Source of the DNA: Verrucomicrobiota bacterium
Lineage (GTDB): Bacteria; Verrucomicrobiota; Verrucomicrobiia; Verrucomicrobiales; Akkermansiaceae
Assembly: GCA_027619375.1 (NCBI GenBank)
Contig: JAQCFL010000013.1
Coordinates: forward strand, 1-32,580
Length of the DNA: 32,580 bases
Direction of reading: 5' to 3'
In this document: in pieces, positions 12,767 to 19,202 of the stretch
Layout of the letters: the number at the start of each line of letters is the position of its first letter
How positions within the stretch are numbered: the stretch's first letter is position 1
Position numbers and translations under genes: made by a program
The notes under the pieces: generated by a model
Seen by the model: only the letters and a program-made list of their open reading frames with translations
The model's database searches: none
What the model was told of the DNA's origin: nothing

Positions 12767-12841
<75 letters not shown>

Positions 12842-13000: not shown

Positions 13001-14350
13001 GTGACATCCCCCTCCCTTACCCTCCTCACCCGCGCCAACGAAATTGGCGCCAATTGCTACCTACTCGAACTGGCCGGCCTCCGCATCATCATCGATGCCG
13101 GCATGCACCCCAAGGAAAGTGGTCGCGCCGCCCTGCCCCGCTACGAGGACCTCCCCTTCGACAGTATCGACGCCATTCTCGTCAGCCACTCCCACCTCGA
13201 CCACGTCGGCACCCTCCCGGTCCTCATGATGGACCAACCCAGCGCCCGGGTCTACATGACCCAACCCACCGCCGCCCTCGCCGACGCCCTCCTCCACAAC
13301 TCGGTCAACGTCATGACCTCCCAGCGCACCGAACTGGGCATCGACGAATACCCCCTCTACACCCACGAACAACTCGACGACTGCGAACGCCGCTTCGAGG
13401 GACGCCACTACGACAAACCCTTCGACATCGATTTCGACGGCACCGTCCGCGCCACCTTCTACGACGCCGGACACATCCTCGGCTCGGCCGGCATCCTCAT
13501 CGAAGGCGACGGCAAACGCATCTTCTACACCGGCGACATCCACTTCGAGGACCACGCCCTCTCCAAAGGTGCCCTCTTCCCGGACCTCCAGGGCCTCGAC
13601 GCCCTCATCGTCGAAACCACCCGCGGCGATAGCGAACGGCGGGCCGGCTACACCCGCCAGTCCGAAGAGAACCGCTTCATCGATTGCATCAACCTCGCCC
13701 TCGACCGCGGTGGCTCCGTCCTCATTCCCGTCTTCGCCATGGGCAAGACCCAGGAGGTCCTCACCATGGTCCACGAGAACAAGGACAGCCGCCGCCTCCC
13801 CGATGTCCCCGTCGTCATCGGCGGGCTCAGCACAAAAATGACCGTCGTCTACGACAAGTTCGCCGACTCCACCCGCCGCGTCCATCCCGGCTTCAGGATC
13901 CTGCGCGACATGAAAATCTCCACCGGCAACCGCCGCAAACGCCAATCCATCCGCTACAACCCCGGCACCATCTACGCCCTCTCCAGCGGCATGATGTCCG
14001 AAAAAACGGTCTCCAACAACTTTGCCCGGGGCTTCCTCGACGACCCGCGCAACTCCCTCCTCTTCGTCGGCTACACCGATCCTTCCACCCCAGGATACCG
14101 CATCAGGACCGCCCAACGCGGCGACATGATCGACCTCAGCCAGGATTTTGCCCCCGTGAAACTCGACTGCGACGTGGAGGTCTTCGACTTCAGCGGCCAC
14201 GCCCCACGCGATCAGATCCTCGACTTCATCCGCAAAACCAACGCCCCGCAGAACATCCTTGTCCACGGTGACACCCCCGCGATGCAGTGGTTTGCCGACC
14301 ACCTCGAGCACTCCACCATCCCCAAAACGGGCCAGAAAACCCCGCTCTAG
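13001..14350 (+). CDS. beta-CASP metallo-beta-lactamase-fold ribonuclease/hydrolase
   Basis: The 449-residue protein starts at GTG 13001 and has the full metallo-beta-lactamase signature: HSHLDHVG (residues 63-70), the third His in DAGHILGS (158) and the bridging Asp in YTGDIHF (179). It then has beta-CASP motifs: the acidic motif A in VETTRGDSERR, the His of motif B in FDFSGHAPRDQI and the final ILVHGDTPA. This architecture is shared by CPSF73-like and archaeal-type RNA nucleases that act in RNA processing and decay in the cytoplasm. Its length and simple architecture fit the bacterial YSH1-type group rather than RNase J, which has extra C-terminal domains. Its stop codon overlaps the stop of the convergent OmpH gene. 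Confidence 0.85.
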   Translation: MTSPSLTLLTRANEIGANCYLLELAGLRIIIDAGMHPKESGRAALPRYEDLPFDSIDAILVSHSHLDHVGTLPVLMMDQPSARVYMTQPTAALADALLHNSVNVMTSQRTELGIDEYPLYTHEQLDDCERRFEGRHYDKPFDIDFDGTVRATFYDAGHILGSAGILIEGDGKRIFYTGDIHFEDHALSKGALFPDLQGLDALIVETTRGDSERRAGYTRQSEENRFIDCINLALDRGGSVLIPVFAMGKTQEVLTMVHENKDSRRLPDVPVVIGGLSTKMTVVYDKFADSTRRVHPGFRILRDMKISTGNRRKRQSIRYNPGTIYALSSGMMSEKTVSNNFARGFLDDPRNSLLFVGYTDPSTPGYRIRTAQRGDMIDLSQDFAPVKLDCDVEVFDFSGHAPRDQILDFIRKTNAPQNILVHGDTPAMQWFADHLEHSTIPKTGQKTPL

Positions 14351-14940
14351 CGGGCCCCCGTTTTAAGCCGCTCCATCAGGAGGGCGGTGATGTCCGTCGC
14401 CTCGCAGCGATGCAGCACGAACGGCATCTCCCGGCCGCCCATCGCCGAACTGTCGAGCACGTAGTGATAGCCGACACTCTTCGCCTCCTCCTGCACCAGA
14501 ACGCAAATCTCCTTTCGGACCCCCTCCATCCGCCACTTCCTCTCCTCCTCCAACGCCGCACTCCGCCGCTGCATGTAGTCCCGGCGTTCCCGATCCCATT
14601 CCACCCCTTCCTGCGTCTTCTTCATGAACTCATTGCCAAATTCCCGCCTCTCCGCTTCACCCAGCCTGGGATCGCTCATCTGATCCCGCAGGTCGCCCAA
14701 CTCCGCCTCAATTTCCCGCAACCGCGCCAACCGCTCCTCATTTTCTTCACGGATCCGCTCCCGCTCCTCGTCACCAAGTTTCCCCGCTGCGATCATCCGG
14801 GGACAACCCTCCAACAGCAGGCTCATGTCCACCGTGGCGATCCTCATCCGCTCCCGATCCCCATGCATCCAGACCGCACCCATCCCCACTGCCACAAAGC
14901 AGAAGAGGACCAGCAATGAAAACAGCGTGGATCGATTCAC
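14347..14940 (-). CDS. OmpH/Skp-like periplasmic chaperone, paralogue 1 (most divergent)
   Basis: This 197-residue protein starts with a hydrophobic signal or anchor segment (STLFSLLVLFCFVAVGMGAVW). The family start RIATVDMSLLL follows, then a long charged coiled-coil arm (EENEERLARLREIEAEL ... KKTQEGVEWDRERRDYMQRRSAALEE) and the C-terminal cap YHYVLDSSAMGG ... ATDITALLM. Skp-type trimers carry unfolded outer membrane proteins across the periplasm. The arm shares KTQEG and YxQRRxAAL with the other three paralogues in this block, but the body is more acidic and the cap differs (MPFVLHRCEATDIT). Missing cleavage residues may mean it stays membrane-anchored. It is the last gene of the block, 31 bases after the single-TM protein. 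Confidence 0.78.
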   Translation of the reverse strand: MNRSTLFSLLVLFCFVAVGMGAVWMHGDRERMRIATVDMSLLLEGCPRMIAAGKLGDEERERIREENEERLARLREIEAELGDLRDQMSDPRLGEAERREFGNEFMKKTQEGVEWDRERRDYMQRRSAALEEERKWRMEGVRKEICVLVQEEAKSVGYHYVLDSSAMGGREMPFVLHRCEATDITALLMERLKTGAR

Positions 14941-14971
14941 CAGATGTTAGTCCCCCAAGTCGCCTCCGCGT

Positions 14972-15412
14972 TCAAAACGATCCGTCAAAACCGAACCGTT
15001 CCACCTCATCGGCATAGTCCGTCACCATCAGCAGGGCGTCCGAGGTGAAATCAAACTCGCACCCGGACTTCCGGGCCAGCGCGGCGACCTGCTCCGCGCT
15101 CATCGCCCTCATCTCCACCCCTTCCCCCGTCGCCACCAACAGCAGCGACCACGGCCCACCCCAGGCCGCAGGCTCCTCCACCGCGATCGGAGCCGGCACC
15201 TCGGGAGGCAGGATGGCCCCCAAGGCACTGCGTCCCCCTTCCTCCCGGCCTGCAAACAAACCCCACACCACCATCAGGAGCACCAGCATCGCCCCCTCCA
15301 CCGCCCGCCTCCGGATCTTGGCCCGACGCCTGGCCGCCACCGCCCGGAGCGTGACACCCAGAATCTCCTCCCCCTGCCGGTCTGCAAAGTCGATCATTGT
15401 CGTCCTATTCAT
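14972..15412 (-). CDS. single-TM protein overlapping the sigma factor gene; candidate anti-sigma factor
   Basis: A 146-residue protein with a basic cytosolic N-terminus (AVAARRRAKIRRRAVEG), one hydrophobic helix (AMLVLLMVVWGLFAG, about residues 42-56) and a periplasmic part of about 85 residues ending in ERFGFDGSF. Its ATG lies in the sigma factor's last codons, so the genes overlap by 8 bases, a sign of coupled translation. That position and topology are typical of anti-sigma factors. However, the N-terminal part lacks the HxxxCxxC zinc motif of the common zinc-binding class, so the role is an inference. An in-frame ATG five codons later is possible. Confidence 0.6.
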   Translation of the reverse strand: MNRTTMIDFADRQGEEILGVTLRAVAARRRAKIRRRAVEGAMLVLLMVVWGLFAGREEGGRSALGAILPPEVPAPIAVEEPAAWGGPWSLLLVATGEGVEMRAMSAEQVAALARKSGCEFDFTSDALLMVTDYADEVERFGFDGSF

Positions 15413-15956
15413 TGTTCATCATCTTCAGGCGCAGGCGCTTCCGCAGCCGCGCCAGTTTCGATTCGATGGCCTTCGGCGTGCTGCACGCCTCCCGGGCCAG
15501 TTCCTGGTGACTCCATCCTTCCACGCAGGAGCGCAGCACGAGGCACCGGTCCCCCTCCGACAATTCCTCCAACACCTCGCCCATCCGCGTCCGTTCCCCC
15601 TGGCCCGAAACTTCCCGCGTCTCCTGCCAGTGCGCATATTTCTCCATCAAGGCCAGACGCCGTTTCCGCTGGCGGGCCCGGTCGATCAACTCGCAGCGCA
15701 ACAAACACCGCATCCACGCCTCCAGCGATCGGGCATCGGGCATCGCCTTCACGTGCCGCAGGATGCGCAGGTAGGTCGCCTGCACCAGATCCCCCGCCTC
15801 CTGCCCCGACACCCCCCGCGAGCCGGCATAGGCCATCAGGAACTGAAAATACCGCGCATGAAATTCCCGCCAGGCGCCCTCCTCGCCCGCCTTCATCCCC
15901 GCCGTGAGCCGACGACAATGCTCGGGAGTGAGGGCGGTTTCACGGGGCTCAGGCAT
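15405..15956 (-). CDS. ECF-type RNA polymerase sigma factor
   Basis: This 183-residue protein has sigma-70 region 2 (ISG-like start, then EAGDLVQATYLRILRHVKAM and the helix SLEAWMRCLLRCELIDRARQ, about residues 50-97). After a linker comes region 4 (ELSEGDRCLVLRSCVEGWSHQELAREACSTPKAIESKLARLRKRLR). The lack of regions 1.1 and 3 and the length make it an ECF sigma factor. It sits between two OmpH genes, all on the minus strand, so it may control envelope chaperone expression; the target promoters are unknown. Its stop codon overlaps the start of the candidate anti-sigma gene. Confidence 0.88.
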   Translation of the reverse strand: MPEPRETALTPEHCRRLTAGMKAGEEGAWREFHARYFQFLMAYAGSRGVSGQEAGDLVQATYLRILRHVKAMPDARSLEAWMRCLLRCELIDRARQRKRRLALMEKYAHWQETREVSGQGERTRMGEVLEELSEGDRCLVLRSCVEGWSHQELAREACSTPKAIESKLARLRKRLRLKMMNNE

Positions 15957-16001
15957 GGGGCGAATCTTTACCGGTCTTCGAACCCTGAAACGTCCATCCG
16001 T

Positions 16002-16637
16002 TCATTCTCCAATTCCTCCCGCCACATCCGCTTCCTGTTCCGGGGCATCCTTGTTCAGATCCAGCAACAACCCCGCCGTCATGTCGGCCGCATCCTTCGT
16101 GTAAAGCAGGAACGGCACCTGCGAGGCACTCAGCCCCGATTGATCGAAGACGTAATCGTAATCATCCTCCTTCGCCCGAGCCTCCACCAAACGCCGGATC
16201 TCCTCCAAAATCCCCCGCATCCGCTGCACCATCTTCTCGTTGAGCGCGGCATTCCGGCGCTGCAAATATTCCCGACGCTCCCGATCCAGCGCCACCCCTT
16301 CCTGCGTCTTCATCTGGAAGTCCTTGAACAACTCCTGCTTCCTCATGTCGCTGATCGAGGGATCCTCCAATTGCCTGCGCAAATTCTGCAACCCCTCCTC
16401 CAACTCCCGGATCCGCGACAAGCGCTCGTTGTTTTCCTTCTGGATCCGGGCCCGCTCCACGTTGATTTGCTTCTGCGCCTCGTTGGTCCGATGGTAGTCC
16501 TTGAACAACTCCTGCATGTCCACCGTCGCGATCTTCAGGGCATTCTCCGCCCCCGCCGTGGGCGCCAAAGCCAGCATCGTGGAAAGTAAAAATCCGCAAA
16601 CAAGCATCCGGCAGCTGGGAAGTGTGTCAATCATCAT
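16002..16637 (-). CDS. OmpH/Skp-like periplasmic chaperone, paralogue 2
   Basis: The 211-residue protein starts at the first of two adjacent ATGs (16637), preceded by GGGGTGAG as a Shine-Dalgarno-like stretch. The signal peptide is MLVCGFLLSTMLALAPTAGA. The mature part begins LKIATVDMQELFKDYHRTNEA, forms a long coiled arm, and ends in the cap DYDYVFDQSGLSASQVPFLL and LNKDAPE. The fold fits Skp, a periplasmic holdase for outer membrane proteins. It is close to 90 percent identical to the paralogue at 17811-18449 (my hand count: 18 differences in about 165 residues), so the two arose by a recent duplication around lpxD. Confidence 0.85.
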   Translation of the reverse strand: MMIDTLPSCRMLVCGFLLSTMLALAPTAGAENALKIATVDMQELFKDYHRTNEAQKQINVERARIQKENNERLSRIRELEEGLQNLRRQLEDPSISDMRKQELFKDFQMKTQEGVALDRERREYLQRRNAALNEKMVQRMRGILEEIRRLVEARAKEDDYDYVFDQSGLSASQVPFLLYTKDAADMTAGLLLDLNKDAPEQEADVAGGIGE

Positions 16638-16744
16638 GGTCTCACCCCCAAGACGCCCCTCACCCACCCCACCCCTCGCCCTTCCAAAAAAAATCTGCCG
16701 GCCTCAGAATCCCCACACCCCAGACCATCAATCGGACAACCCGG

Positions 16745-17785
16745 TCACCGCTGCTTCTTCAGCTCCTCGATCTCCTGCCGCATCTCCCGCATCTGCTTCA
16801 GCAAATCAGGCAGACGCCCCAGCGCAGCCCGCGCCTTCAACTCCTCCCTTATCGGCCGCGCCGGCAACCCGAGATAAACCCCCGCCTTCGAAATGTCCTT
16901 CGCCGCCCCCGCCATCCCCGCCAACACCACCTGATCGCCCAGCGACACATGCCCCGACAAACCCGACTTCGCCGCCATCACCACATAATCCCCGAGCGTC
17001 GAACTCCCCGCCACTCCCGCCTGCGCCACCAACAAACAATGCTTCCCGATCCGCGCGTTGTGCGCCACCTGCACCTGATTATCGATTTTTGTCCCCTCCC
17101 CGATCACCGTCCGCCCAAAGCGGGCCCGATCAATCGTCGTGTTCGCCCCGATCTCCACATCATCCTCCACCACCACGATCCCCACCTGCGGGATCTTCAC
17201 GTGCCTGCCCTCCACCAGTTCAAATCCATACCCGTCCGAACCGATCACCGCCCCCGGTTGCACGATGACCCGGTTTCCCAAACGACAGCGCTCCCGCACC
17301 GTCACGTTCGGATAAAGCGTGCAGTCCTCCCCGAGGACCACGTCCCGGCCCACCACCGTTCCCGCTCCAATCCGTGTCCCCGCCCCGATCAAGACACCTC
17401 CCTCCACGATCGCTCCCGGCCCGATCGACACCTTCTCCGGATCAAACTCCACCCCTTCCGCCACAATTGCCGCGGGATGCACGCCTGGCTCGAAAATCTC
17501 CAACTCCGCCGCAAAAAGCGCCACCACCGTCGAGAAGGCCAGGCTTGGGTTCTCACAACGCACCAGCGCCACTCCTTTTGGCCCCGCCTCCACCATCGGC
17601 GGCACGATCACCACGCCCGCCTTCGTCGCCTGGAAATCCGCCGCGTACTTCTCGTTGCCGAGAAAGCTCGCCTCTCCGGAATTGGCCTCATCAAGCGAAG
17701 CCACGCCCATCAGCACCGTCGCGGGATCTCCCGTCAGCAGTTCCCCACCCAGCAGGGCCACCAACTCATCGAGGCGAATCTCCAC
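16745..17785 (-). CDS. lpxD: UDP-3-O-(3-hydroxyacyl)glucosamine N-acyltransferase LpxD
   Basis: The 346-residue protein (GTG start at 17785) has an N-terminal uridine-binding domain followed by a left-handed parallel beta-helix of hexapeptide repeats (from about residue 105). The motif IGSDGYGFE (181-189) and the catalytic His in QVAHNARIG (His 242) match LpxD, as does the total length (E. coli about 341). LpxD adds the second 3-hydroxyacyl chain to the lipid A precursor in the cytoplasm. The C-terminal helix (LLKQMREMRQEIEELKKQR) is the trimer-stabilising tail. The neighbouring OmpH genes on both sides are on the same strand; this echoes the skp-lpxD order of Proteobacteria. Confidence 0.95.
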   Translation of the reverse strand: MEIRLDELVALLGGELLTGDPATVLMGVASLDEANSGEASFLGNEKYAADFQATKAGVVIVPPMVEAGPKGVALVRCENPSLAFSTVVALFAAELEIFEPGVHPAAIVAEGVEFDPEKVSIGPGAIVEGGVLIGAGTRIGAGTVVGRDVVLGEDCTLYPNVTVRERCRLGNRVIVQPGAVIGSDGYGFELVEGRHVKIPQVGIVVVEDDVEIGANTTIDRARFGRTVIGEGTKIDNQVQVAHNARIGKHCLLVAQAGVAGSSTLGDYVVMAAKSGLSGHVSLGDQVVLAGMAGAAKDISKAGVYLGLPARPIREELKARAALGRLPDLLKQMREMRQEIEELKKQR

Positions 17786-17810
17786 GATGGCCTGTTGGTT
17801 CAGGTTGGAA

Positions 17811-18449
17811 TTACTCGTTCTCCGGGATCGGCTGGAGCGGCAGTTCCACTCCTGGCTCCTCGTCGGTCACTTCCGGCGCATCCTTGTTCAGCGTCGCGAG
17901 GAGACCCGGGGTGATGTCCGTGGCATCCTTCGTGTAGAGCAGGAACGGCACCTGCGAGGCACTCAAACCCGACTTGTCGAACACGTAGTCATAGTCGTCG
18001 GTCTTCGCCTGGTCTTCCACCAACTTCCGGATCTCTTCGAGAATGCCACGCATCCGCTGCACCATCTTCTCGTTCAGGGCTGCATTCCGACGCTGCAAAT
18101 ATTCACGACGCTCCCGGTCCAGGGCCACGCCCTCCTGCGTCTTCATCTGGAATTCCTTGAACAACTCCTGCTTCCGCTTGTCGCTGATCGAGGGGTCCTC
18201 CAACTGCTTGCGCAAATTCTGCAACTCGGTCTCCAGCTCACGGATTCGCGCCAGACGCTCATTGTTCTCCTTCTGAATGCGGGCCCGCTCCACGTTGATC
18301 TGCTTCTGCGCCTCATTCGTCCGGTGATACTCCTTGAAGAGCTGCTGCATATCCACCGTGGCGATCTTCAGCTTGTCCTGCGCGGCGGCAGGCAGGGCGG
18401 CGAAGAGAAGCATTCCGGCGAGAGAGAGGGTCAGTTGGCGGACAGTCAT
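17811..18449 (-). CDS. OmpH/Skp-like periplasmic chaperone, paralogue 3
   Basis: A 212-residue protein with signal peptide LTLSLAGMLLFAALPAAAQ. The mature start is LKIATVDMQQLFKEYHRTNEA, followed by a coiled-coil arm and the cap DYDYVFDKSGLSASQVPFLL. It ends 25 bases before lpxD on the same strand. It and paralogue 2 are nearly identical over the arm and cap, while the signal peptides and the extreme C-termini (EEPGVELPLQPIPENE here) differ. The C-terminal acidic/proline tail may be flexible. The arrangement and family point to delivery of outer membrane proteins across the periplasm. The start codon is preceded by an A/T-rich stretch (CCTAAATAA), not a Shine-Dalgarno. Confidence 0.85.
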   Translation of the reverse strand: MTVRQLTLSLAGMLLFAALPAAAQDKLKIATVDMQQLFKEYHRTNEAQKQINVERARIQKENNERLARIRELETELQNLRKQLEDPSISDKRKQELFKEFQMKTQEGVALDRERREYLQRRNAALNEKMVQRMRGILEEIRKLVEDQAKTDDYDYVFDKSGLSASQVPFLLYTKDATDITPGLLATLNKDAPEVTDEEPGVELPLQPIPENE

Positions 18450-18537
18450 TTATTTAGGATAATTGAGTAAGTTCGCCGCAAGTCTGGAGGGAAATCCGCA
18501 GGTCGTCAACGCCCTTCCCCGGCCGCTCTCCACCCAT

Positions 18538-19113
18538 TTATTCGGCCGGGGCTCCCTTGCGCAACTCCTTCTGGATCATCGGCGTGATGTCCGTGGCATC
18601 CTTCGCATAGAGCAAAAACGGCACCTGAGCCGTGCTCAACCCCTCCACATCAAAGACGTAGTCGAATCCCGCCCCCTCCGCACTCTCCGCAATGATCCCC
18701 CGAATCTCCTCCAAAATGCCGTTCATCCGGGCCACCATCTTCTGGTTCAACTTCAGATGCCGCGCCTGGATGCTCTGCTTCCTCAGCCGCTCCAACGCCT
18801 CCCGCTCCTGAAACAGCATCCCCACATCCCGGCTCAACGCACTCCGCTCCGCCTCCTCCAGCTCCGAATCCTGCAGACGCTTGGTCTGGTCCCGCAGCTT
18901 CTCATCAAAAACCTTCACCCGCTGCAGCATCTCGTTCTCCTCCTTCTGGATCCGGGCCCGCTCGGCATTGATCTGGGCTTGCGCCTCCAGCGTCTTATAG
19001 TAATCCCGAAACAGAGTCTGAATATGCACCACCCCCGTCTTCGGCTTCTCTTCCGCAGACAGCGGGAGCAACAAGGCCGCCCCCATCCCCAGCAGCATCA
19101 ACGATCGTTTCAT
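18538..19113 (-). CDS. OmpH/Skp-like periplasmic chaperone, paralogue 4
   Basis: This 191-residue protein starts at ATG 19113 (GGAAGGGG close upstream); a GTG at 19125 is less likely. The signal peptide is MKRSLMLLGMGAALLLPLSA. The mature start TGVVHIQTLFRDYYKTLEAQ differs from paralogues 2 and 3, but the arm (AERARIQKEENEMLQRVKVF) and the cap (FDYVFDVEGLSTAQVPFLLYAKDATDITP) place it in the same family. It is the first gene of the seven-gene minus-strand block and diverges from panC across 89 bases, where the block promoter should lie. Its cap lacks the second half of the C-terminal tail found in paralogues 2 and 3. Confidence 0.8.
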   Translation of the reverse strand: MKRSLMLLGMGAALLLPLSAEEKPKTGVVHIQTLFRDYYKTLEAQAQINAERARIQKEENEMLQRVKVFDEKLRDQTKRLQDSELEEAERSALSRDVGMLFQEREALERLRKQSIQARHLKLNQKMVARMNGILEEIRGIIAESAEGAGFDYVFDVEGLSTAQVPFLLYAKDATDITPMIQKELRKGAPAE

Positions 19114-19202
19114 CACCCCTTCCACAAGTCGGTCGCATCCTAGCCACGCCTCTCCTGAAACTCAAGGCCATTCAAATTCCCCAAGACCCGAAGCCCTCCG
19201 CC

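Follow-up and report, generated by a model that had tools for sequence, protein, structure and literature searches.

The periplasmic chaperone Skp (OmpH family) is a holdase for outer-membrane proteins. Its gene is found with bamA and lpxD in a bamA-skp-lpxD cluster in Proteobacteria and Chlamydiae, and the linkage of OmpH genes to lpxD is already known. The secretin N0/STN fold is the fold that FecA uses to signal to FecR. In Escherichia coli, sigma-E transcribes lpxD and lpxA (PMC2215328). The CnrYXH system of Cupriavidus metallidurans comprises CnrH, a sigma factor of the extracytoplasmic function (ECF) group, CnrY, a short two-helix anti-sigma factor with a single transmembrane (TM) segment, and CnrX, a periplasmic sensor (PMC4598750). 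Here, we report the analysis of a block of seven genes with four OmpH genes (OmpHA to OmpHD), lpxD, an ECF sigma factor gene and a single-TM protein gene, located on a 32,580-nucleotide (nt) stretch (the window; contig JAQCFL010000013.1, assembly GCA_027619375.1) from a Verrucomicrobiota bacterium of the family Akkermansiaceae. The block is two adjacent transcription units, OmpHA-OmpHB-lpxD and OmpHC-ECF-TM-OmpHD. The first is the cluster that the family ordinarily has for outer-membrane biogenesis; the second is, in our judgment and with moderate confidence, a self-controlled ECF operon in which a Skp-type chaperone would act as periplasmic input and the TM protein as anti-sigma factor.

The assembly (4.08 Mb, 466 contigs, 84% complete) holds the window as contig 178. 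The genes of the block, and a hairpin at its end, were as follows.

18538..19113, minus strand: OmpHA, Skp-like periplasmic chaperone, gene 1 of the lpxD unit (Pfam OmpH, 56 bits), with a panC-side ortholog in the congener L034 and in Roseibacillus-like genomes.
17811..18449, minus strand: OmpHB, lpxD-linked housekeeping Skp-like chaperone (Pfam OmpH, 70 bits), adjoining the 5' side of lpxD in nearly all Akkermansiaceae loci.
16745..17785, minus strand: lpxD, UDP-3-O-acylglucosamine N-acyltransferase (Pfam LpxD and Hexapep; NCBIfam equivalog TIGR01853, 348 bits against a cutoff of 242.5).
16002..16637, minus strand: OmpHC, Skp-like protein of the sigma module (Pfam OmpH, 62 bits), preceding the ECF gene as in 13 other genomes; proposed periplasmic input.
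15405..15956, minus strand: ECF sigma factor, 183 amino acids (Pfam Sigma70_r2 and Sigma70_r4_2 above gathering; TIGR02937, 61 bits).
14972..15412, minus strand: single-TM protein, 146 amino acids, TM segment at about residues 38 to 54, basic N terminus, 8-nt overlap with the ECF gene; proposed anti-sigma factor.
14347..14940, minus strand: OmpHD, diverged Skp-like protein 3' of the TM gene (Pfam OmpH, 40 bits; Skp fold match).
14341..14354, minus strand: terminator-like hairpin over the OmpHD stop codon (CCCGCTAGAGCGGG then GTTTT), a consensus match whose count was not above that of shuffles.

Gene order in relatives separated the two units. In the congener L034, the order is panC, OmpHA, OmpHB, lpxD and a metallo-β-lactamase (MBL) gene, with the first and last facing against the middle three; the 240 nt separating lpxD from the MBL gene were searched for remnants of OmpHC, the ECF gene, the TM gene and OmpHD, and none were found. 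The same short order OmpHA-OmpHB-lpxD occurs in Roseibacillus-like and related genomes, and most other Akkermansiaceae have one OmpH gene ahead of lpxD. The initial annotation had taken the seven genes for a single system; compared across related Verrucomicrobiota, that order was absent from the congener and from the family, so the seven genes are not one conserved system, and a conserved seven-gene operon was ruled out. Nor is bamA nearby, as might have been expected from the usual skp-lpxD neighborhood: Omp85 genes sit on other contigs. In the window's genome, the additional unit OmpHC-ECF-TM-OmpHD sits as an insertion between lpxD and the MBL gene, and the combination of four paralogues with a sigma factor was specific to that genome among the genomes examined. 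The number of OmpH copies per genome ranged from 1 to 5 (58 relatives), and extra OmpH genes 3' of lpxD without a sigma factor were found in L035 to L037, L047 and L048. In one genus (L035, L036 and L037), two more OmpH genes lie directly 3' of lpxD with no sigma factor, an independent tandem expansion.

The inserted unit is built around a module that recurs elsewhere, apart from lpxD at the loci read. The ECF sequence was queried against 260 family genomes, plus the locus L135, which covers the same stretch of contig as L174; in 13 genomes besides the window's, an OmpH gene lay directly before the nearest ECF relative and a gene for a short single-TM protein after it, with a 4-nt overlap between the OmpH and ECF genes in several modules. 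The surroundings of the module vary between genomes, lpxD adjoins none of the module loci read, and an OmpHD-like gene follows the TM gene only in the window's genome among those examined, the other modules being without it. The TM proteins are one family (basic N terminus, one TM segment, C-terminal motif near DGxPxLExLxxxxL...FSLxPIL). The window's protein matched a profile of the other modules' TM proteins at E = 1.8e-6 (small set; next best, 0.35), and a search with one TM protein as a single sequence found relatives in three genera of the family among 50 genera of the order (E ≤ 0.001). Its gene adjoins the ECF gene, it has one TM segment, and its N terminus (net charge of +5 over the first 40 residues) is predicted from charge to face the cytosol; these are traits of an anti-sigma factor, and its presumed cytosolic stretch is short, which would resemble class II CnrY. 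Three module OmpH proteins (L166, L167 and L169) have signal sequences with lipobox-like ends (LSAC, LSC or ISNC) and proline-rich linkers. They are probably membrane-anchored Skp-like proteins, and such signal ends would fit an anchored sensor.

A promoter-like box marks the start of the module. Upstream of the OmpH start codon, all 14 modules (window included) carry CGAGGGGT or CGAGGGAT/CGGGGGAT, exactly 15 nt, and then CGT (mostly CGTTG). Its parts in the window were as follows.

16671..16678, minus strand: -35-like box CGAGGGGT, the same or CGAGGGAT/CGGGGGAT in all 14 modules.
16651..16655, minus strand: -10-like box CGTCT, 15 nt past the -35-like box; a spacer of 15 nt and CGT were found in 14/14 modules.
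16686..16693, minus strand: T-tract, about 7 nt upstream of the -35-like box, with a comparably placed A/T tract in most other modules.

The ATG comes 14 to 15 nt after CGT begins (18 nt in the window's case), and in L227 and L240, where the OmpH gene is split between contigs, the box precedes the other half. Pairwise identity was 91% in the -35-like and 83% in the -10-like box, against 38% in the spacer and 34% in the 30 nt upstream. The box was present in 12/12 real regions, compared with 0.13 on average and at most 2 over 2,000 shuffles, and spacer lengths other than 15 nt gave 0 to 2 matches. The motifs AAC and CGT are the hallmark of ECF promoters (PMC8103513); the module's -10-like box has CGT, and its -35-like box is without the usual AAC. 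The strict pattern occurred at no more than 3 sites per genome in 32 genomes, near the reversed-pattern control, and the only strict sites with a long open reading frame (ORF) 10 to 11 nt downstream were those of module OmpH genes (31 sites read, 30 loci). Strict and looser motif searches for a wider regulon returned, besides module OmpH genes, background only (three looser matches in the window's own genome), and the box was absent upstream of OmpHA, OmpHB, OmpHD and the sigma gene. A sigma motif shared by the block and other envelope genes, as the initial annotation had envisaged, was thus not found. Its proposal that the sigma factor adjusts Skp supply stood in part: the sigma factor is functionally tied to an OmpH gene by the OmpH-ECF-TM linkage and the box in 14 genomes, but there is no indication of a regulon that extends to lpxD or to Skp supply in general, because the box precedes only OmpHC and matches elsewhere are background. 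On the same grounds, the predicted regulon is the module operon only, and that operon is probably autoregulated.

The module belongs to a wider set of ECF loci in Verrucomicrobiia. A class-wide search yielded 18 further genomes with more distant ECF relatives (E values of 1e-26 to 1e-38). At the readable loci, the gene before these sister ECFs encodes a different secreted protein, never OmpH, in most cases with the pattern FDLDFPGGT...LNVIIP...LPPLKM..VTV..LF, and a single-TM protein follows the ECF in 18 of the 21 loci examined (L303, a family genome, included). The closest family ECFs without OmpH (L177 to L182) are likewise preceded by such a secreted protein; the first-slot proteins of L178, L179, L181 and L182 match the secreted-protein profile (E values of 2.6e-17 to 2.9e-7), and OmpH does not. 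Near the start of the first gene, 12 of 18 sister regions carry a CGAAGGAT-like box, exactly 14 nt and CGT[GA]T (0.018 expected), and the CGAGGGGT-N15-CGTT form itself is present at the non-OmpH loci L177 and L178. In the ECF tree, the 14 OmpH-slot sigma factors form one clade (99/98, 100% of bootstraps) nested among ECFs with another secreted first gene, with the window's ECF as the deepest branch within it; the slot therefore changed once, from a secreted protein to OmpH. Loci L284 to L304, from other Verrucomicrobiia families, encode a secreted weakly secretin-N0-like protein, an ECF and a single-TM protein with a C-terminal DDELLALLxGRPxALI, behind the promoter CGAAGGAT-N14-CGT[GA]T. Assignment of the sister first-slot protein to an STN/N0 domain drew weak matches only and was kept as a hint. 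In promoters of both clades, the start codon often lies about 10 to 15 nt past the first CGT base, and the predicted transcripts are nearly leaderless.

Within the OmpH clade, the first gene has a history of its own. The module OmpH partners do not follow the sigma tree, and a single clade of module OmpH proteins, a group set by gene order, was rejected (p-AU, approximately unbiased test, 5e-8; run after seeing the tree, with long branches present). Three module OmpH proteins branch with lpxD-linked ones: OmpHC of the window joins OmpHB from its genus (95/80), the G063 protein goes with lpxD-linked OmpH proteins from related genomes (100/93), and the L135 protein with the lpxD-linked OmpH that the same organism encodes (L127; 100/93). 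At least three lineages thus show the module OmpH gene overwritten by their own copy linked to lpxD. The simplest account, given that promoter and sigma factor stayed the same, would be that the lpxD-linked copy replaced the module gene in place or by gene conversion, and independent recruitment of OmpH genes to the same promoter is less likely.

We propose that the short basic N terminus of the TM protein keeps the ECF sigma factor at the inner membrane, and that secreted OmpHC may touch the periplasmic part of the TM protein and report the state of the periplasm (for example, free versus client-loaded chaperone). The freed sigma factor would transcribe its own operon from CGAGGGGT-N15-CGT, and sensor, sigma factor, anti-sigma factor and chaperone would rise together. 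The layout would stem from a wider Verrucomicrobiia system with a different secreted protein as first gene; in one Akkermansiaceae lineage, a Skp-like chaperone would have taken the first slot, its gene being later replaced repeatedly by the housekeeping lpxD-linked copy. A secreted protein, an ECF and a single-TM protein in this order, with a self-directed promoter, would by analogy be the anatomy of a membrane signalling switch; CnrYXH operates in this manner (PMC4598750), and its CnrH is a detectable relative of the window's sigma factor. Because the first slot of the sister systems holds an unrelated secreted protein, we take this slot to carry the input, which in the OmpH clade would have been exchanged for a Skp-type chaperone; the slot-swap evidence favors OmpHC as the input of the sigma system over OmpHC as a mere output. 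A broader version is offered more tentatively, at rather less than even confidence: a class-wide ECF family with an exchangeable periplasmic input, which in Akkermansiaceae would be a Skp-type chaperone, its gene repeatedly overwritten by the housekeeping skp, so that a tracking copy of the cell's own chaperone would gauge the folding load of the periplasm.

Several points weigh against OmpHC as input and the TM protein as anti-sigma factor. Autoregulation alone would suit OmpHC as a regulated product, too; as modeled, OmpHC retains the full Skp fold, together with conserved residues, and may still be an ordinary chaperone; and OmpHD has no place in the proposed scheme. Pfam and NCBIfam searches assigned the TM protein to no family and found no recognised anti-sigma domain in it. 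The window's -10-like box (CGTCT) and its 18-nt distance to the ATG deviate slightly from the other modules, and the predicted promoter function is drawn from conservation only. The likeness of the sister first-slot protein to secretin N0/N1 domains is weak (HofQ, E = 0.0066; Secretin_N, E = 0.02), and a Pfam check of it as secretin-N0 gave no convincing match.

Of the other explanations, one retains some weight, unlikely as we consider it: the sigma/TM pair senses stress alone, and OmpHC is the regulated product, an extra stress-induced Skp, comparable to the sigma-E response of E. coli. The position of the promoter-like box before OmpHC suits this account, as do the 78% identity of OmpHC to the housekeeping copy with the Skp fold kept, and a replacement by housekeeping copies would fit a gene serving only as more chaperone. 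However, the unrelated secreted protein with a cognate promoter in the sister slot is a better fit to a sensor slot, several module OmpH proteins are strongly diverged and lipobox-bearing, and the motif searches placed the motif at no other envelope gene. A single seven-gene operon whose sigma factor adjusts lpxD and all four chaperones is improbable; the single strand and short gaps speak for it, but besides the lack of conserved order in congener and family, OmpHC is set apart from lpxD by a promoter-like box of its own, with none before OmpHA or OmpHB, and module copies elsewhere are unlinked to lpxD. A chance neighborhood of functionally unrelated OmpH genes and an ECF-TM pair, with the box as an unrelated conserved element, can hardly be credited: related genomes do have ECF-TM pairs without OmpH, and OmpH copies do vary from 1 to 5, but the same order and box recur in 14 genomes with differing surroundings, and in 100% of bootstraps the ECF clade coincides with the OmpH slot.

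The gene content given by the initial annotation was confirmed. The seven minus-strand ORFs are spaced from an 8-nt overlap to an 88-nt gap, lpxD and the ECF sigma factor matched TIGR01853 and TIGR02937, respectively, and all four OmpH proteins scored at least 40 bits against a Pfam PF03938 gathering cutoff of 32.4. The ORF of OmpHA (18538-19125) opens with GTG at 19125, and that of OmpHC spans 16002-16667; the likelier starts are the ATG codons at 19113 and 16637. These four are the only OmpH genes detected in the window's assembly; OmpHB and OmpHC share 78% protein identity (79% at the DNA level), and every other pair shares 30 to 47% at the protein level. The sigma factor has sigma2 and sigma4 domains only, as in ECF (group 4) sigma factors, and CnrH was among the nearest solved structures (E = 1.2e-5). 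AlphaFold monomer models (30-row alignments) of OmpHC and OmpHD (predicted local distance difference test scores [pLDDT] of 87 and 85) had a small beta core and a long helical hairpin, with SkpA (8gl8) and Skp (1sg2, 1u2m) as best PDB matches. A likeness of the OmpHD model to CnrX (fold-search E of about 2) was not used as evidence, and a plasmid origin of OmpHD was looked for with no match. The hairpin at 14341..14354 is likely the end of the predicted OmpHC-ECF-TM-OmpHD transcript.

Beyond the block, the plus strand carries a beta-CASP metallo-hydrolase gene (13001-14350) with below-cutoff matches to archaeal aCPSF1 (235 bits) and a type VII CRISPR nuclease model (206 bits); this gene is a conserved neighbor of lpxD in part of the Akkermansiaceae. 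A tRNA-Met gene (CAT anticodon; 12767-12841, minus strand) adjoins the MBL gene. A mobile insertion marked by inverted or direct repeats was considered and rejected, with only OmpH-derived or short chance repeats found. A sigma-70 promoter scan gave a single weak plus-strand match, at shuffle level.

If OmpHC is the input, a Skp-type protein feeding a sigma switch would mean direct sensing of chaperone load. With its conserved promoter, the system can be put to the test straight away. Across the class-wide relatives, sigma factor, TM protein and promoter stay and only the input protein has been exchanged, a ready-made series for comparison. Envelope stress control has received little study in Verrucomicrobiota, and the analysis also supplies predicted promoter signatures for an ECF lineage there.

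Sigma control of envelope genes is not new as an idea, because lipid A genes are already known to be under sigma-E in E. coli (PMC2215328); this architecture is new. A search of the open-licence literature found no description of an OmpH-ECF operon, of a Skp-type chaperone as the input of a sigma factor or of this Verrucomicrobiia ECF family, and is hence no proof of novelty. The arrangement of OmpHB directly ahead of lpxD is that of the bamA-skp-lpxD cluster, but bamA lies outside the block, and extra OmpH genes and the ECF module are added. With sigma-E/RseA/RseB of E. coli, the module shares an ECF at the inner membrane, a periplasmic partner and a link to outer-membrane biogenesis; it differs in that no RseA, RseB or anti-sigma domain match was found among the operon genes (Pfam, NCBIfam) and in that its motif precedes its own operon, not lpxD or housekeeping chaperones. 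The first-slot secreted protein of the sister systems weakly resembles secretin N0/STN domains, as in FecI/FecR/FecA signalling, whereas the module has no TonB receptor and no FecR family match, and the first slot of the OmpH clade is a Skp-like chaperone. Compared with CnrYXH, the periplasmic part is a Skp-type chaperone and not a CnrX-type metal sensor, the gene order is different, the operon has no metal-resistance genes, and the TM protein is without detected similarity to any known anti-sigma family; common to both are an ECF sigma factor, a small single-TM protein with a short basic cytosolic part and a secreted helical periplasmic protein.

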